Shown here: positions 22,025 to 32,272 of the stretch, in pieces
How positions within the stretch are numbered: position 1 is the stretch's first letter
Layout: every line of letters starts with the position of its first letter
Source of the DNA: Nesterenkonia pannonica
Lineage (GTDB): Bacteria > Actinomycetota > Actinomycetes > Actinomycetales > Micrococcaceae
Reading direction: 5' to 3'
Assembly (NCBI RefSeq): GCF_019575955.1
Contig: NZ_CP080575.1
Span: forward strand, 930,001 to 994,000
Length of the DNA: 64,000 nt
The notes under the pieces: model-generated
Database searches by the model: none
The model's input: only the letters and a program-made list of their open reading frames with translations
Told to the model about the DNA's origin: nothing
Position numbers and translations under genes: made by a program

Positions 22025-22760
22025 ATGCTCGACGAACTCGTCATCATCCCTGCCCGTTACCGATCCTCCCGCCTGCCCGGCAAACCCCTGGTGGACCTCG
22101 CTAAGCAGGCCCATGATCATCCGCACCGCCGAACGCTGCTTCGAGGTCGTCGACCGGGACCACGTCGTCGTCGCCACCGATGACGAGCGCATCGCCGAAG
22201 CATGCCGGGAGCACAACGTGCGCTACGAGATGACCCGCGATGACCACCCCACCGGCGGCGACCGCGTCGCCGAAGTGGCCGCGCGCATCCCCGCCAAGAC
22301 CTACATCAACGTCCAAGGCGACGAGCCCGTCTTCAACCCCGAAGACCTGCGCATCATCATTGAGGCCGCCCGCGCCGACCGCACCCGCACCTACATCGGC
22401 TACTGCGAGATGACCGAGGAGCAGTGGAAGGACTCGAAGTACATCAAGCTGCTCTTCGGCCAGAACAGGCAGCTCATCTACATCGGCCGGGCCCCGGTGC
22501 CCCACGGCCACAGCGGCGAATTCCAGGTCGGCTACCGGCAGGTGTGCGTCTACGCCTACCCGCTGGAGGTCCTCCAGGCTTTCGCCGCCCCGGGGAAGAA
22601 GACCCCGCTGGAGGAGATCGAGGACAACGAGGTGATGCGGTTCCTCGAACTCGGGCTGCCCGTCGACGTTCTCGAAATGTCAGAGGACTCCATGCCCGTC
22701 GACCGCCCCGACGACGTCCCGCTCGTCACCGCCAGGCTCCACGAGCTCGGGCTCGCCTGA
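22025..22760 (+). CDS. kdsB: Second CMP-ulosonate (CMP-Kdo-type) synthetase
   Basis: About 245 residues. The start at ATG 22025 follows GAGGGA and gives the family opening LVIIPARYRSSRLPGKPLVDL. After a break at TAAGC 22102-22106 the protein continues as PMIIRTAERCFEVV, VVVATDDERIAEACREH, GGDRVAEVA, YINVQGDEPVFNPEDLR and ends SMPVDRPDDVPLV. It activates an ulosonic acid with CTP in the cytoplasm. It differs well from the 13657 copy, so this is probably not a recent duplication but a second acceptor sugar or a second polymer. It lies on the same side as the GT29-like genes at 24.6-28.2 kb, which would use a CMP-sugar. Confidence 0.87.
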
Positions 22761-24560: not shown

Positions 24561-26537
24561 ATGCTGAAGACACTCGTGATGGGCGCAGAAGTAAGTACGG
24601 CGCACCGTGCGCGTCCTCGGACGCATACCCGGTGCCGAGTAAGCCTGGCGCGCGCCGTCATCGCCTCCGCGCGGGCCGTGCCCACCCCGCCCAAGCCGAA
24701 TTCGCGGGCAAGGACCCCGCCCTGCGACGTCTACACGCCCAAGCCGCCACTGTGCTGTTCGAAGCCAACCCGCGCGGCGCCCAACAGGTGCTGGACCAGC
24801 TCGACCTCGCCTCCGCGACCGACGCCGACCAGCTCGAACGCATGGCCGTGCGCTACATGAAGCTCGGCGAATTCGAAGCAGCCCTGGCCATGCGCCAGCG
24901 CGCCGCCGCACTCGACCCCACGACCCCGTCGGCACCTCGCCCTGGCCCGCTCCCTGCAGCGCGCCAGCAAAAGGGCCTCACCCGCGACCCCGTCCTGGGA
25001 CTGCGGCCCGGCGGAGAGCCCCAGGTCGACGAAGCCCGCGAAGCCCTACGAGCCGCCGCCGAGCTGGCGCCCGGGCACCCCGCCGTGCTCCGCGAGCAGG
25101 GCGACCTCGAATTCGCCCACGGCGACCAGGATCACGGCCTCGCCCTCCTCGAAGAGGCCGTCGCCGCCAGGCCCACCGCCGCCGGGTACAAAGACCTCGG
25201 CCAGCGGTACCGCAAGCCGCAGATCCAACGCCTCGACGACGCCCTCAGCGCCTACGAGAGCTCCCTGCAGCTCAACCCCGCGACGGGCAGGTCTTCCGAG
25301 CCGTCGTCACCCTCGGCTGCCGCACCAGCCACGACTGGCCCCGCCTCTGGCGCAGCGCCCTGCTCTACGAACGCTCCCGGGGCTGCGCCTGCCCGGAACC
25401 GGCAGCCGACGGCGCAGCCGCCTCACCGCAGAGTTCGCCGACCTCTTCACCGAAGCGCCCATCACACCCGCACGCGCACACAGCGCCGTAGCCCGTCTGG
25501 AAGCCACCGGGGAGCGCGCGGCCTACTCTCCTGGCCCACCACCGCGCTCATCACCTACCGGCTGCAGTTCGCCGGGCACCTCACCGCTTACTTCCGGCTG
25601 CGCCGCCAGCTCGCCGAACGCACCCGCGAATGGCTCGGCAGCGTCTCCGCAGGCCACGCCTACCACCGGCAGAAGCTCCTCGCCGCCGAGGTCTACCTCG
25701 ACCGCCTCGACGAGGCCCTCGCCCTCATCGACCCCATGCCCTGGAAGCCTCAGAGCCCCCTGGCCGCCCAGCAGCTGCGCAAGCTCGCCGCCGACGTGCA
25801 CCTGCTGCGCGGCAGCACCGGCCCCTACCTCGAATACTCCTGCGCCGCCCGCGCCCAGCAGCCCATGCAGGCCGAAGGGGCCGCCGAGCAGCTCGTCGCC
25901 GGGAAACGCGTGGCCATCGTCGGCCCCGTCGACACCGGAGACCGACTCGGGAGCTCATCGACAGCTACGACGTCATCGTCCGGCCCCGGTTCGCCCCCGA
26001 GTTCGTCCAGCAGCACCAGGACGCCCAAGGCAGCCGCACCGACATCGTCTACCTCAACGACCACGACATCCACGCCTCCGTGACCGCCATGCAGGAGGCC
26101 GTAGACGCCGGTCAGCTGCAGCTCGCCGTGGCCCGGCCCAGCAGCATCAGCCGCCACGGCGCGGCCCAGCAGCCCTGGCTGCGGTTCTACCGGCAGGAGT
26201 TCGCGCTCTCCCACCACGGCGCACTGCTCGGCATCCCCGCATGGTCTACGACCTCGCCCAGTTCGAGCCCGCCGAGATCGCCGTGTTCAACACCGACCTC
26301 TACACCGGCACCGACGCCTTCGCCGTCGGATACCGGGAGGACAAGGACACCGTCTTCGGCCCCGGATCCGCCATGAACGACCTCATCGTCAACCACGACC
26401 TGCGATTCGACTTCACCTTCCTGCAGCGGCTGCAGCAGGCTTACCTCCTCACCGCCCACGGGCGCACCGCCGAGGTCCTCAGCCTCACCCCAGATCAATA
26501 TGTCCGCGCTCTCGAAACCGGAAGCGCCCTGCGATAG
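24561..26537 (+). CDS. TPR protein with C-terminal GT29 (sialyltransferase)-like domain, copy 1
   Basis: About 640 residues. The start is unsure: ATG 24561 or GTG 24632, with a TAAGC string at 24640 suggesting a break between. The N-terminal ~430 residues are helical TPR-like repeats (ERMAVRYMKLGEFEAALAMR, AREALRAAAELAPGHPAVLR, HGLALLEEAVAARP). The C-terminal domain opens with GKRVAIVGPVDTGDRLG near 25903, then IDSYDVIVRPRF and RTDIVYLND, the layout of sialylmotif L of GT29, and later MVYDLAQFEPAEIAVFNTDL and YTGTDAFAVGYRED near 26300, at the place of motif S. GT29 enzymes use CMP-sugars. Breaks near 25280, 25950 and 26240. It is followed in 10 bases by its paralogue. Confidence 0.68.
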
Positions 26538-26547
26538 GAGAAAGACC

Positions 26548-28250
26548 ATGGCTGTGTCACTGCACGGGCTGCGCGGAAAGATCGCAGGCGCCGCCGTGCT
26601 CAAGGGAGCCGTCCGGCGGGCTACTCCTCACCCCGGTCGCCAAAGCGATCAGCACCGTCGCCGACGCTGTAGAGCCCGGCACGGTCGCCGCAGGGAAGCC
26701 GAAGCCAGCGGGTCCTACCGCGGGCTCCTCGCCGGCATGCTGCGCGAGGCGCTGCCGGCACCACCCGTCGACCACACCGACGTGATCTTCGACGCCGTCT
26801 GCGGACTCATCCCTGGCCCCCGAACGGAACACGTCAGCTACCAGGAGCTCCTGGACCGCGCCGAAGCCCAGCCCACCGTCGGCAACCTGCTCGCCGCCGC
26901 CGCTGAGGCCCGCTTACCCTACAACGCAGACTTCACCCGCGCCCTTCAGCTCTACGAAGCCGCCTTCGAGAAGAACCCGCAGGACCTCCGCGCCTACGAA
27001 GGCATCCTCAGCACCACCGGACGCACCGACCTGGACTGGCAGCGCGTATGGGAGGCCGCCTCCGCGCTCAAGCCCAAGCGCGGACTCCTCGGCGCCGACT
27101 CCCTCTTCTGGGTCCCCATCAACCAGCTCTTCCAGCCGCAGCCGCCCGCCGAAGCGCTGCGCCGGGCCAAGCCCCTGCTGGAGCAGTACCGCCCCCGCGT
27201 CATCCGGCTGCACCAGTTGCTCATCGAAACCATCACCGCGCGTCTCCAGTTTCTCGGCGAATTCCGGGCCGCCCAGAGCCTGCGCGCGGCTATGGCCGAG
27301 AACAGGGTCCGCGAACTGCGCGGCATCCCGTTGGAATCCCCCTCTGGCTCAAGCACCTCCTCGGCGCCTACGCCCACCTGGACCAGGACGCCCGCCTGCT
27401 GCGCACCGCCACCCGCCCGCCCCTGGACACCGGCACCGTACGCGCGGCATCGCCGCCGAAAAGCTGCGCGCCGACGCCGCCCTCTACACCGGCGACCCCT
27501 CCCACCTCGTCGCCCACGCGGCCCGCCGACGCGCAGAGCTCACCCTCCCCGGCGACGAGACCATGCACCAGCTCATCCACGGCAAGCGCGTCGCCGTCGT
27601 TGGGCCCGCCGCGGCCTCCGACGCCCTCGGAGCGGCCATCGAGGACTACGACATCGTCGTGCGCACCCAGTACAAGCCCCAGACCCTCCGAGGCAGGGCC
27701 GGAAAAGTCGGCGAACGCACCGACATCGCCTATTTCCAGACCAAAGACCTCACCGCCGACTGGGACCAGCTCGCCGACACCATCCCCACCAGCGGCGTGA
27801 AGCTGGCCGTGGCCCGGCCGCTGATGCACACCGTCCTCTCCGCCGAAGGGCGGCAGGCCCCTGACTGGCTGCGCTTCGCCCGGTTCGAATACGGCCTCTA
27901 CTTCCGCGGCGCCCCCTGGGCATCCAGCGCATCCTCTACGACCTGCTGCAGTTCGCCCCCGCCGAGATCGGCCTCTTCCACGCCGACTTCTACGCCGGGA
28001 CCGGCACCTTCACCGCCGGATACCGGCACCAGGAGAACACCTTCGGGCGCCACTCGGCCCTGAACGACCTGGTGATGATGCACGACCTCGGCTACGAGTT
28101 CCGGTTCGTCCAGCGCCTCCTCCGCGCCGGGACCATCACCGCCCACGGCACCGCCGCCGAGGTCCTCAGCCTCAGCGAAGACGAATACCTCGGTTACTCG
28201 AGAGCGGACCCCTGGCCGCGCTCTCGCCCAACCGGGCCATGCGGCAGTGA
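26548..28250 (+). CDS. TPR protein with C-terminal GT29 (sialyltransferase)-like domain, copy 2
   Basis: About 567 residues; start ATG 26548 with AGGAG just before. The helical N-terminal part contains TPR-like units (FTRALQLYEAAFEKNPQDLR). The C-terminal domain has HGKRVAVVGPAAASDALG near 27580, IEDYDIVVRTQYKPQ and GERTDIAYFQ near 27711: the order V-V-G, I-D/E-x-x-D-x-V-x-R, G-x-RT is that of sialylmotif L. Near 27925 come QRILYDLLQFAPAEIGLFH and YAGTGTFTAGYRHQ, like the first copy. Breaks near 26620, 27340, 27440 and 27917. With KdsB nearby, I infer transfer of a CMP-activated ulosonic acid to a wall polymer. The bacterial members of GT29 are few and little studied, so the family call should be tested. 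Confidence 0.7.
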
Positions 28251-28331: not shown

Positions 28332-29386
28332 GTGACGGATCACCTTTTGGACAGCACCCCGCCCCCGAGGAAAGGGGACGGAAGAAGAGCTCCCTCGGCA
28401 GACGAGTCCTGCTCGTCACCCTCTCCCTGGCAGCCCTGGTGGTGGTCGGCGGAGCGGCAGCCGTCGCCCTGTACCTCGGCTCCCTGAGCTCCAACTACGA
28501 AGAGTCCGTCAACGTCCTCCCCGAGGACCAGACCTTCCCGACGCAGACCGGCCCGAGGCCCCACCGCCGACGACGGCTCAGAGTCCGAGCAGCTGAACAT
28601 CCTGCTGCTGGGCTCCGACGCAGGAGGCGGCTCCGGCGAGGACGAGAACGTCCCCTGGCTGCCCGACGCCGCCCGCGCCGACAGCATCATGTGGGTCCAC
28701 GTCCCCACGACCGCGAATCCGTGCAGATCATGTCCATCATGCGCGACACCTGGGTGCCCATCGCCTACCAGAGCGAGGCCAAGATCAACGCCTCCCTGAG
28801 CTACGACGGGCCCGAGACCGCCGTCGCCACCCTGGAGAACCTCATCGGCGTGCCGATCGACCACGTCGCCGCCGTCGATATGGAAGGCTTCCAGGGCCTC
28901 GTGGAGGCCAAGGACGGGGTCACTGTGAACTCGCCCCAGAGCTTCACCTCCCAGGATGGCTACCACTTCGAAGCTACTCCCAGGAGCTCAGCTCCTCCGA
29001 GGCGCTGAGCTTTGTGCGCGAGCGCCAAGCCTTCAGCGACGGCGACTACACCCGAGTGGCCAACCACCAAGCCTTCATGGAAGGCGTTCTCAGCGGCGTC
29101 CTCACGCCCCAGAACCTCTCAACCCGGCCCGGGTCCACGACATGGTCACCGGCTTCACCCCCACATGACCGTGGACTCCGAGCTCTCCGAATCCGGGTAC
29201 ATCGCAGACCTCGGCTGGGACATGCGCAGCGTCCGCGCCGGGGACATCACCAGTTTCACCCTCCCCAACAACGGCATCGGCACCGCAGGCTCAGAGTCCA
29301 TCGTCGTCGCCGACTACGACGCCTTCGACGAAGCCGGCGAGGCCATGCGCGAGGGCACGTTCGAGCAGTACGCCGACCAGCACTGA
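28332..29386 (+). CDS. LytR-CpsA-Psr (LCP) wall-polymer ligase
   Basis: About 351 residues. A short basic cytoplasmic tail (GRKKSSLGRR) and one membrane helix (VLLVTLSLAALVVVGGAAAV) lead to an extracellular LCP domain: NILLLGSD near 28600, ADSIMWVHV, VQIMSIMRDTWV near 28721 with the conserved arginine and aspartate, KINASLSYDGPE, VDHVAAVDMEGF-like VAAVDMEGFQGLV, and DYTRVANHQAFM near 29043. LCP enzymes move lipid-linked teichoic or capsular polymers onto peptidoglycan or other carriers. Start GTG 28332; the break in G4 near 28374-28377 is bridged, and others lie near 28555, 28700, 28975 and 29120. It follows the GT29-like pair and presumably attaches the polymer made by these enzymes. Confidence 0.85.
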
Positions 29387-31048: not shown

Positions 31049-32145
31049 CTAGCTGAGGTTCAGGGCCCGCACGATCCGGTCGGCGCAGCCAGGGCCCTCC
31101 TCGGGCAGCTCACCGGAGGGCCCGGTGACGAAGTTCAGGTGACGGGCCCGCCACCGGCTGTAGTCCAGGTGCTTGAGCCGCATCGCCGTGTTGGCCGCCT
31201 CCTCCGCGGTGGCGACGATCGGCCCCGGCGATTCCGCCTCGTAGTCCAGCGGGAAGCCGCGCGTGTTCCGGAACTCCTCCAGGTCGTAGGCCCAGAAGAT
31301 CGTCGGAATGTCCTTCAGCGCAGCCTCGTACACCACCGCCGAATAGTCGGAGATGATCACATCGGCCACCGAGAGCCAGTCCATGATGCCGAACTCGGCG
31401 CCGCTGACGGTGCTGCCGTCGTCGGGCACCGGAGTCTTGTCCACCGGGTGCGGGATGATGACCAAGTTGGTGTCCGTGCCGCGGAACTGCTCAGCCAGCT
31501 CCTCATAGGGCAGGCCGCGCTTCAGCCGGGATGTGGGCGTGTACAGCACAGTGCGTCCCTCGGCCAGCTCCGGGTGTCGCCTGAGGATCCGCTCCCGACG
31601 CTTCTGGCTGCCCTCGTCATCCAGCAGGTAGTCCACCCGGGCCATGCCGAAGGGCTGCACCGACTCCGGCGCAATCTGAAAGGCCTTGGCGAACACCTCA
31701 GCGGGCACCGTGCCTACCGCGCACATGAACGTGTAGTTCGCATGCATCCGCATCACCTTCGCCACCGCCGGGTCCGGGCCCTCAGGGTGCCCGCCACCAG
31801 GTAGGCGAAGTTCTTGAACCCGCCCATCGCGTGCCAGATCTGCCCCACAGGCAGGCCCTTGCGATGATTGAGCACGCTGACCGGGATGATGTAGCCGTCC
31901 ACCAGGATGCCCCGGCAGGTGGCCAGGTGGTACATCTCCCGCACCGCGGCGAACAGGTACCCCATGGAAAGCTTCTTGTGCTTGATCACCTTGATCTCAT
32001 AATCCGGGTGATTCCGCCTGATGGAATCCTTCAGCAGTGCGAAGTCCACCCGAATCTGGCGCAGATCCCTGGTCATCAGCACCACTTTGCGCTGCGTGGG
32101 CAGCAGCTTCAGCACCGCGTAGATCATGCGGGCTCCCAGGACCAT
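31049..32145 (-). CDS. CDP-glycerol:glycerophosphotransferase (TagF/TagB-like)
   Basis: About 365 residues. A hydrophobic N-terminal segment (MIYAVLKLLP) is followed by the CDP-glycerol glycerophosphotransferase domain: QIWHAMGGFKNFAY with the conserved histidine, FGMARVDYLLD, TVLYTPTSR, LVIIPHPVD, DVIISDYSAVVYEAAL and TIFWAYDLEEFRNTRGFPLDY. The family polymerises or primes poly(glycerol-phosphate)-type wall teichoic acid on the inner face of the membrane. ATG 32145 is the first in frame, but the hydrophobic helix appears to extend upstream in the same frame, so GTG 32224 with a frame error is possible. One break near 31780-31790. Divergent from the M16 protease gene. Confidence 0.82.
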
Positions 32146-32272
32146 GATTCCTAGGGCATACGGGAGGACTCGGCGAATAGCTGCATCCTCCCTCAGGGCC
32201 TGACAATGAGCGAATATTTATCACGGATACCCTAACTCACCCCGCATTACATCCGGGTAGCTTGGAGGCACT

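Follow-up and report, generated by a model that had tools for sequence, protein, structure and literature searches.

What do two tandem genes for tetratricopeptide repeat (TPR) proteins, each ending in a domain that resembles an animal sialyltransferase, do among the wall-polymer genes of an actinobacterium? The question is raised by a 64,000-nucleotide stretch of the Nesterenkonia pannonica genome (assembly GCF_019575955.1, contig NZ_CP080575.1, positions 930,001 to 994,000), called the window here. An original prediction, made from the sequence of the window alone, related both C-terminal domains to glycosyltransferase (GT) family 29 (GT29) and proposed that they transfer an ulosonic acid from cytidine monophosphate (CMP) to a wall polymer. 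The present analysis indicates that this TPR-GT family is, judged from its sequences, a divergent GT29-like clade and not a strict member of GT29. The pair probably acts as a CMP-ulosonate transferase for a wall glycopolymer, with a sugar of the type of 3-deoxy-D-glycero-D-galacto-non-2-ulosonic acid (Kdn) or 3-deoxy-D-manno-oct-2-ulosonic acid (Kdo).

Both genes carry the four motifs that had been named, in the order given: GKRVAIVGP, IDSYDVIVR, GSRTDIVY and YDLAQFEPAEI in gene 1, and GKRVAVVGP, IEDYDIVVR, GERTDIAY and YDLLQFAPAEI in gene 2. The outer coordinates of the prediction, 24561-28250, agree with a start codon (ATG) at 24561 and a stop codon (TGA) at 28248-28250. It missed that both genes are broken into several frames in this assembly. 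The stop of gene 1 is a TAG at 26535-26537, and ten bases past it, at 26548, lies the ATG of gene 2. Compared with genome G013, the nearest intact relative, gene 1 follows at least the frame path 1-2-1-3, with 60-90% identity to the G013 pieces, and gene 2 follows the path 1-3-2-1-3. A profile built from 26 domains of intact relatives (profile A1) matches the gene 1 domain in three pieces (25847-25954, 25951-26238 and 26235-26540; E = 1.3e-8, 1.6e-34 and 1.7e-41) and the gene 2 domain in two (27524-27916 and 27913-28194; E = 2.0e-47 and 1.2e-43).

The frame breaks extend to neighbouring genes. Thirteen G013 genes were matched in or just upstream of the window with tblastn, and three were left out as paralogue or antisense matches. 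All ten compared syntenic genes, both TPR genes included, are split over at least two frames (window 15732-38945 and locus L104). The breaks therefore seem to belong to the assembly, whose sequence looks rich in insertion-deletion errors; decay confined to the two TPR genes is an unlikely cause, since all ten genes are affected. The source genome measures 2.7 Mb with a completeness score of 62%, and 26 of 29 same-genus genomes score 93-100%.

The kinship with GT29 emerges from sequence profiles. When A1 was searched against sequences of the Protein Data Bank (PDB), GT29 proteins matched best, making up seven of the nine sequences with E < 0.02, led by 2wnb (E = 0.0014). These structures include ST3Gal, ST6Gal and ST8Sia enzymes. 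The remaining two sequences were of the DppD ABC protein (E = 0.0053), and an eighth GT29 protein, ST6GalNAc2, reached E = 2.3 only. The Pfam GT29 model (PF00777) matched 15 of the 26 members at E ≤ 1 (best 8.8e-5) and left 11 without a match. The window's own domain fragment scored 13 bits (E = 0.068) and did not reach the gathering score of 23, and a PF00777 scan of the source genome returned no match. Since a scan of 346 genomes from the phylum with this model gave matches in only 2, A1 was used for the order- and class-level samples described below. A bridge group of 11 more typical GT29 proteins, nine actinobacterial and two from Bacteroidota, all matching PF00777, connects the two ends. 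The bridge profile aligns with ST3Gal1 from motif L through motif VS (E = 1.1e-13) and with the TPR family at E = 1.1e-16 (hhalign probability 98.8); motifs L and VS line up, and the motif S region is offset by a few residues. When the two Bacteroidota proteins were used alone, the alignment with the TPR family was limited to motif L.

The AlphaFold model of the class A domain (the class of gene 1) has a predicted local distance difference test (pLDDT) score of 89.3 and a predicted template modelling (pTM) score of 0.90. In a Foldseek search of the PDB, GT29 structures occupy ranks 1-15 (E = 3.0e-6; best TM-score among GT29, 0.48), and CstII of GT42 follows from rank 16 (E = 2.3e-4, TM-score about 0.5). 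The top match in a viral structure library is a giant-virus protein named GT29. The catalytic domain of both genes is predicted to adopt the GT-A variant 2 (Rossmann-like) sialyltransferase fold. The GT29 relationship first proposed is thus borne out by profile matches, by the bridge alignment and by the structural ranking.

The active site tells where the family departs from GT29. In ST3Gal1, the available text of the source assigns binding of the CMP phosphate to Asn147 and Asn170, the acid role to His299 of motif III and the base role to His316 of motif VS; Ser is the usual residue at the first Asn place among sequences of ST3Gal5 and ST6Gal1 (PMC6884586). All 26 A1 domains keep the His of the VS motif H-x4-E/D, followed five residues on by Glu in 18 and Asp in 8. 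The core of motif L (G, I-D-x-x-D-x-V-x-R and G-x-R/K-T) is also kept and aligns with that of ST3Gal1, with G28, I40, D44, R48, G64, R66 and T67 each present in 26/26. The Asn147 place is occupied by Pro in every A1 domain, and the Asn170 place by Arg in 21, Asn in 3, Gln in 1 and Gly in 1. The motif III place reads G-Y-R (26, 25 and 24 of 26) and has no His. Motif S (P-S/T-x-G) retains its Gly in 26/26 with no preceding Ser or Thr, in a region where the hhalign register is offset by a few residues. The cysteines of motifs L and S are not kept, and 19 of the 26 domains have no Cys at all. The bridge proteins keep the two CMP-phosphate Asn in 8/11 and 10/11; motif III is clear in one of the 11, L056 (HYYD).

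Because the Asn pair is replaced while the bridge proteins mostly keep it, donor-phosphate binding is, by residue comparison, changed in the TPR clade, and this is the main ground against plain GT29 membership. The loss of this pair, of the motif III His and of most cysteines sets the family outside GT29 in the strict sense. An unrelated fold or missing CMP-binding residues had been named as outcomes that would speak against the original prediction, and the answer is divided: the predicted fold is GT29-like and the base His is invariant, but two CMP-phosphate ligands and the motif III His are missing.

The TPR fusion that had been proposed is supported by a Pfam match to TPR_2 in the gene 1 frame (E = 2.2e-8) and by the AlphaFold model of a full-length class B protein (the class of gene 2), in which a helical solenoid precedes the GT domain (pLDDT 87.9, pTM 0.89). 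The gene 2 frame matches TPR_14 only, weakly (E = 0.1). An N-terminal TPR solenoid, a feature of the TPR-GT41 proteins OGT and SPINDLY (SPY), is found here both by Pfam and in the full-length model. The best PDB matches of that model include SPINDLY (E = 4.7e-4) and human OGT (E = 3.8e-3), which together with GT29 structures span E = 5e-4 to 4e-3. These matches would suit an OGT-like protein glycosyltransferase, in which the solenoid presents proteins and the GT29-like domain places an ulosonate on Ser or Thr. Maf-type flagellin transferases use CMP-nonulosonates, which is a further point in favor, although the literature search found no paper on it. However, the neighbours are wall-polymer genes (LCP, TagF-like and TagD-like), and the OGT and SPY matches have root-mean-square deviations of 11-30 Å over long alignments and therefore reflect the TPR part, not a shared active site. 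Protein glycosylation is thus an unlikely role.

A CMP-ulosonate donor is favored by the genes that accompany the pair. Of the 20 genomes that have the pair, the source genome included, 19 also have NeuB; none of the 10 genomes lacking the pair does. Independent draws would produce this split with a chance of 3.7e-7, a figure that overstates the case since the genomes are related. A CMP-ulosonate synthetase is present in 15/15 genomes with the pair and 0/7 without it at E 1e-6, a threshold set after the values had been seen and with G022-G029 outside the count. TupA-like PF14305 is unlinked (16/20 with the pair, 9/10 without). A neighbour scan with representatives placed a CMP synthetase near TPR-GT genes in 18 of 19 rows, which amounts to 17 of 18 genomes, G026 and 'Nmul' being one contig. 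In N. muleiensis, the order is NeuB fusion, TPR-GT, CMP synthetase, TPR-GT. Demequina, which belongs to another family, adds to this. In Demequina pelophila, the stop of a KdsB-like gene overlaps the TPR-GT start (ATGA); D. oxidasica has the same overlap if a GTG start is used, and an ATG follows 24 bases later. Both Demequina species have a NeuB fusion upstream. LCP and TagF-like genes also lie near TPR-GT genes, and TagD-like genes are present in many of the loci. It is these neighbouring genes that suggest a wall polymer as the acceptor.

Several observations weigh against a CMP-ulosonate transferase. Besides the altered donor-phosphate and motif III places, the Foldseek TM-scores are moderate, at most 0.48 among GT29. 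Draft genome G029 has the pair and no NeuB match, and relatedness among the genomes weakens every co-occurrence count. TagF-like PF04464 is linked to the pair as closely as NeuB and the synthetase are (20/20 with the pair, 1/10 without). For this reason, co-occurrence is not specific evidence for a CMP-ulosonate donor; a complete wall-polymer module appears to be present or absent as a unit across the genus. The genes also point to different sugars, with NeuB indicating a C9 acid and the synthetases matching models for Kdo. Our search of the open-access literature found no report of Nesterenkonia wall composition.

The linkage with PF04464, the many TagD-like genes and the replaced CMP-phosphate Asn would also fit a donor switch, in which the altered site takes another cytidine donor, such as cytidine diphosphate (CDP)-glycerol, for a teichoic-acid-type polymer. 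Yet the Demequina stretches (20.7 and 11.4 kb) contain no TagD or TagF match, and there the TPR-GT gene abuts a KdsB-like gene. Moreover, TagF-like proteins already supply a CDP-glycerol transferase. Such a switch is decidedly unlikely.

Relatives were sought within and beyond the genus. With the gene 2 domain as query, 29 same-genus genomes were searched and 19 gave matches, in open frames of 428-1220 amino acids. Each of the 19 has an intact pair on the same contig and strand within 3 kb. In the loci examined, class A (about 660 amino acids) comes first and class B (about 560 amino acids) second, and the copy number rises to four or five in four genomes. In the tree, the 12 class B rows fall into a single clade (support 100/99). 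There the piece from gene 1 of the window is placed with class A of G013, and the piece from gene 2 with its class B. In N. alkaliphila, the two classes of gene are separated by an additional open reading frame of 235 amino acids (L082:8851-9558). A profile search upheld absence in nine of the ten negative genomes; in the tenth, G025, there was a match that was weak and partial (E = 0.003). Outside the genus, an order-level sample of 396 genomes yielded whole-domain matches only in G410 and G185, whose domains are the same as those of the two Demequina species, plus seven partial matches. A class-level sample of 394 genomes gave no whole-domain match outside the genus, and the plasmid records searched gave no match.

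With two donor-phosphate Asn and the acid of motif III gone, the domain could have given up donor binding and might only organize other wall enzymes, as a pseudoenzyme or scaffold. The invariance of the catalytic base and motif L core (26/26, both classes) and the strong conservation of the domain across two bacterial families make this improbable. That the domain is instead some other enzyme sharing this general fold, for instance a diphosphokinase like MptE or HPPK, is hardly credible: Methanocaldococcus HPPK matches the domain model (E = 3.4e-4, rank 20) and the viral library includes proteins named MptE-like, but GT29 fills ranks 1-15 and sequence profiles reach GT29 by separate routes.

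The features of the window are collected in the table. The CMP-ulosonate context of the original prediction holds up, given the KdsB-like synthetase upstream of the pair and the co-occurrence of NeuB and synthetase genes with TPR-GT. An intact second synthetase sits 8 kb upstream of the broken one and also matches NF009905 (E = 7.4e-76; 254.7 of 255 bits). At a place similar to that of the family 2-type gene, G004 has a gene matching PF00535 (L050:11688-12776; E = 7.9e-28), and the G004 LCP gene matches PF03816 (E = 4.4e-42).

Table. Coordinates of the TPR-GT genes, their domains and neighbouring genes in the N. pannonica window.
Feature	Coordinates	Strand	Basis
Gene 1, TPR + GT29-like protein, class A, frame-split	24561..26537	+	Start, stop and motifs read directly
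Gene 2, TPR + GT29-like protein, class B, frame-split	26548..28250	+	Motifs, start and stop, G013 comparison, tree
GT29-like domain of gene 1, three pieces in differing frames	25847..26540	+	Profile A1
GT29-like domain of gene 2, two pieces in differing frames	27524..28194	+	Profile A1
KdsB-like CMP-ulosonate synthetase, frame-broken near start	22040..22649	+	PF02348 E = 4.5e-21 plus 21-residue piece; NF009905 E = 4.5e-54, 183 of 255 bits needed
Second KdsB-like CMP-ulosonate synthetase, intact, 245 amino acids	13657..14394	+	NF003952 219 bits (cut-off 193); PF02348 E = 8.2e-29
Family 2-type glycosyltransferase, 346 amino acids	23345..24385	-	Assigned by eye
LCP (LytR-CpsA-Psr) wall-polymer ligase, frame-broken	28358..29383	+	Matches G013 gene
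TagF-like CDP-glycerol:poly(glycerophosphate) glycerophosphotransferase, frame-broken	31052..32193	-	PF04464 E = 8.1e-27 at 31163-31759; G013 match in two frames

Some associated genes are unusual in their own right. NeuB carries an extra N-terminal domain of about 215 amino acids (ILGKGPSAD ... VYMVGFDF) at L071:5407-6975 and L104:3249-4878; the latter lies in the source genome just upstream of the window and is also frame-broken. The domain is reminiscent of GT42 by eye. Searches for kinship of this domain with GT29 or any other family gave no meaningful match. Against the PDB, a single-sequence search gave one chance match (E = 0.62) and a profile search none; Pfam gave one chance match, and an hhalign homology test gave a probability of 11.9. 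At L071:9021-10598, a single frame of 526 amino acids encodes a CMP-ulosonate synthetase that contains two cytidylyltransferase stretches, a tandem also seen in G002, G019 and G001. Typical GT29 proteins occur elsewhere in actinobacteria (L056, L057-L059, L061, L067-L069 and L076:13027-14511). The last, from D. oxidasica, scores 29.3 bits, above the Pfam cut-off, and lies near NeuB and a CMP synthetase-phosphatase fusion. Besides L076, typical actinobacterial GT29 genes lie close to NeuB and NeuA in three of eight loci examined. Algoriphagus and Dawidia have small stand-alone GT29-like proteins of about 250 amino acids (L084:9917-10675 and L085:9899-10648).

As CMP-ulosonate transferases, both enzymes would work in the cytoplasm, taking a 2-ulosonate of the Kdn or Kdo type from its CMP donor and adding it to a hydroxyl group on a lipid-linked wall glycopolymer. 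The transfer would be inverting and proceed by single displacement, with the His of motif VS serving as the base. The TPR part may keep the acceptor chain or partner enzymes in place, each of the paralogues A and B may make a different linkage, and the LCP ligase would join the finished polymer to peptidoglycan. A more ambitious proposal, tentative and rather doubtful, is a new actinobacterial class of CMP-ulosonate transferases that combines the animal sialyltransferase fold with other donor-phosphate ligands, no motif III acid and an OGT-like TPR solenoid, and whose A/B pair builds the main chain of an ulosonate wall polymer, one linkage each.

If the proposed function is correct, sialyltransferase-type chemistry extends to Gram-positive wall assembly, and the pair provides a candidate enzyme for ulosonate addition to actinobacterial wall polymers. 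The family would also be a natural GT29-like catalyst that does without two of the usual CMP ligands and so opens the catalytic logic of GT29 to testing. The findings bear on the bacterial origin of animal sialyltransferases proposed in the available text of PMC5811610, as the family's bacterial members extend beyond the proteobacteria listed in that text.

Among known systems, the GT29 family of CAZy (ST3Gal, ST6Gal, ST6GalNAc and ST8Sia) shares the predicted fold, the motif L core and the VS motif H-x4-E/D with the TPR family. Unlike these enzymes, the TPR family lacks the CMP-phosphate Asn pair, the motif III His and, in 19/26 domains, all Cys, and it has a TPR solenoid in place of a membrane stem. 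GT42 (CstII) is a structural match from Foldseek rank 16, and the A1 profile found no GT42 match among PDB sequences. OGT and SPINDLY likewise fuse a TPR solenoid to a glycosyltransferase. GT41 enzymes are GT-B proteins, whereas the catalytic domain here matches GT29 and GT42, not GT41.

That GT29 is best known from animals, as the original prediction had it, is a fair statement, but bacterial GT29 proteins have been in print since 2018. The available text names alpha-, gamma- and epsilon-proteobacteria, does not predict a function and describes the motif L and S cysteines as absent (PMC5811610). The TPR family resembles these and the bridge proteins in being bacterial and without the vertebrate disulphide, and the profile alignment joins it to the bridge proteins. 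In contrast, it replaces both Asn that most bridge proteins keep. Bacterial GT29 is therefore already published, and the matches listed from open-access papers, as far as their available text goes, include no report of a TPR-fused or actinobacterial GT29. In Arabidopsis, the GT29 protein RCKT1 is described as needed for Kdo in the pectin rhamnogalacturonan II, and GT29 is therefore not confined to sialic acid (PMC11288761, available text). RCKT1 parallels the present proposal in pairing GT29 with Kdo on a wall polysaccharide; it is eukaryotic and without TPR, and is set beside the TPR family by description (PMC11288761). The closest parallel in polymer chemistry is the teichulosonic acid of Streptomyces coelicolor (SCO4873-SCO4882), described in the available text as an actinobacterial wall polymer with the ulosonate Kdn as its building block (PMC7831098, PMC13011467). 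The TPR-GT side of this parallel is known from its genes, namely NeuB, CMP synthetases and LCP.

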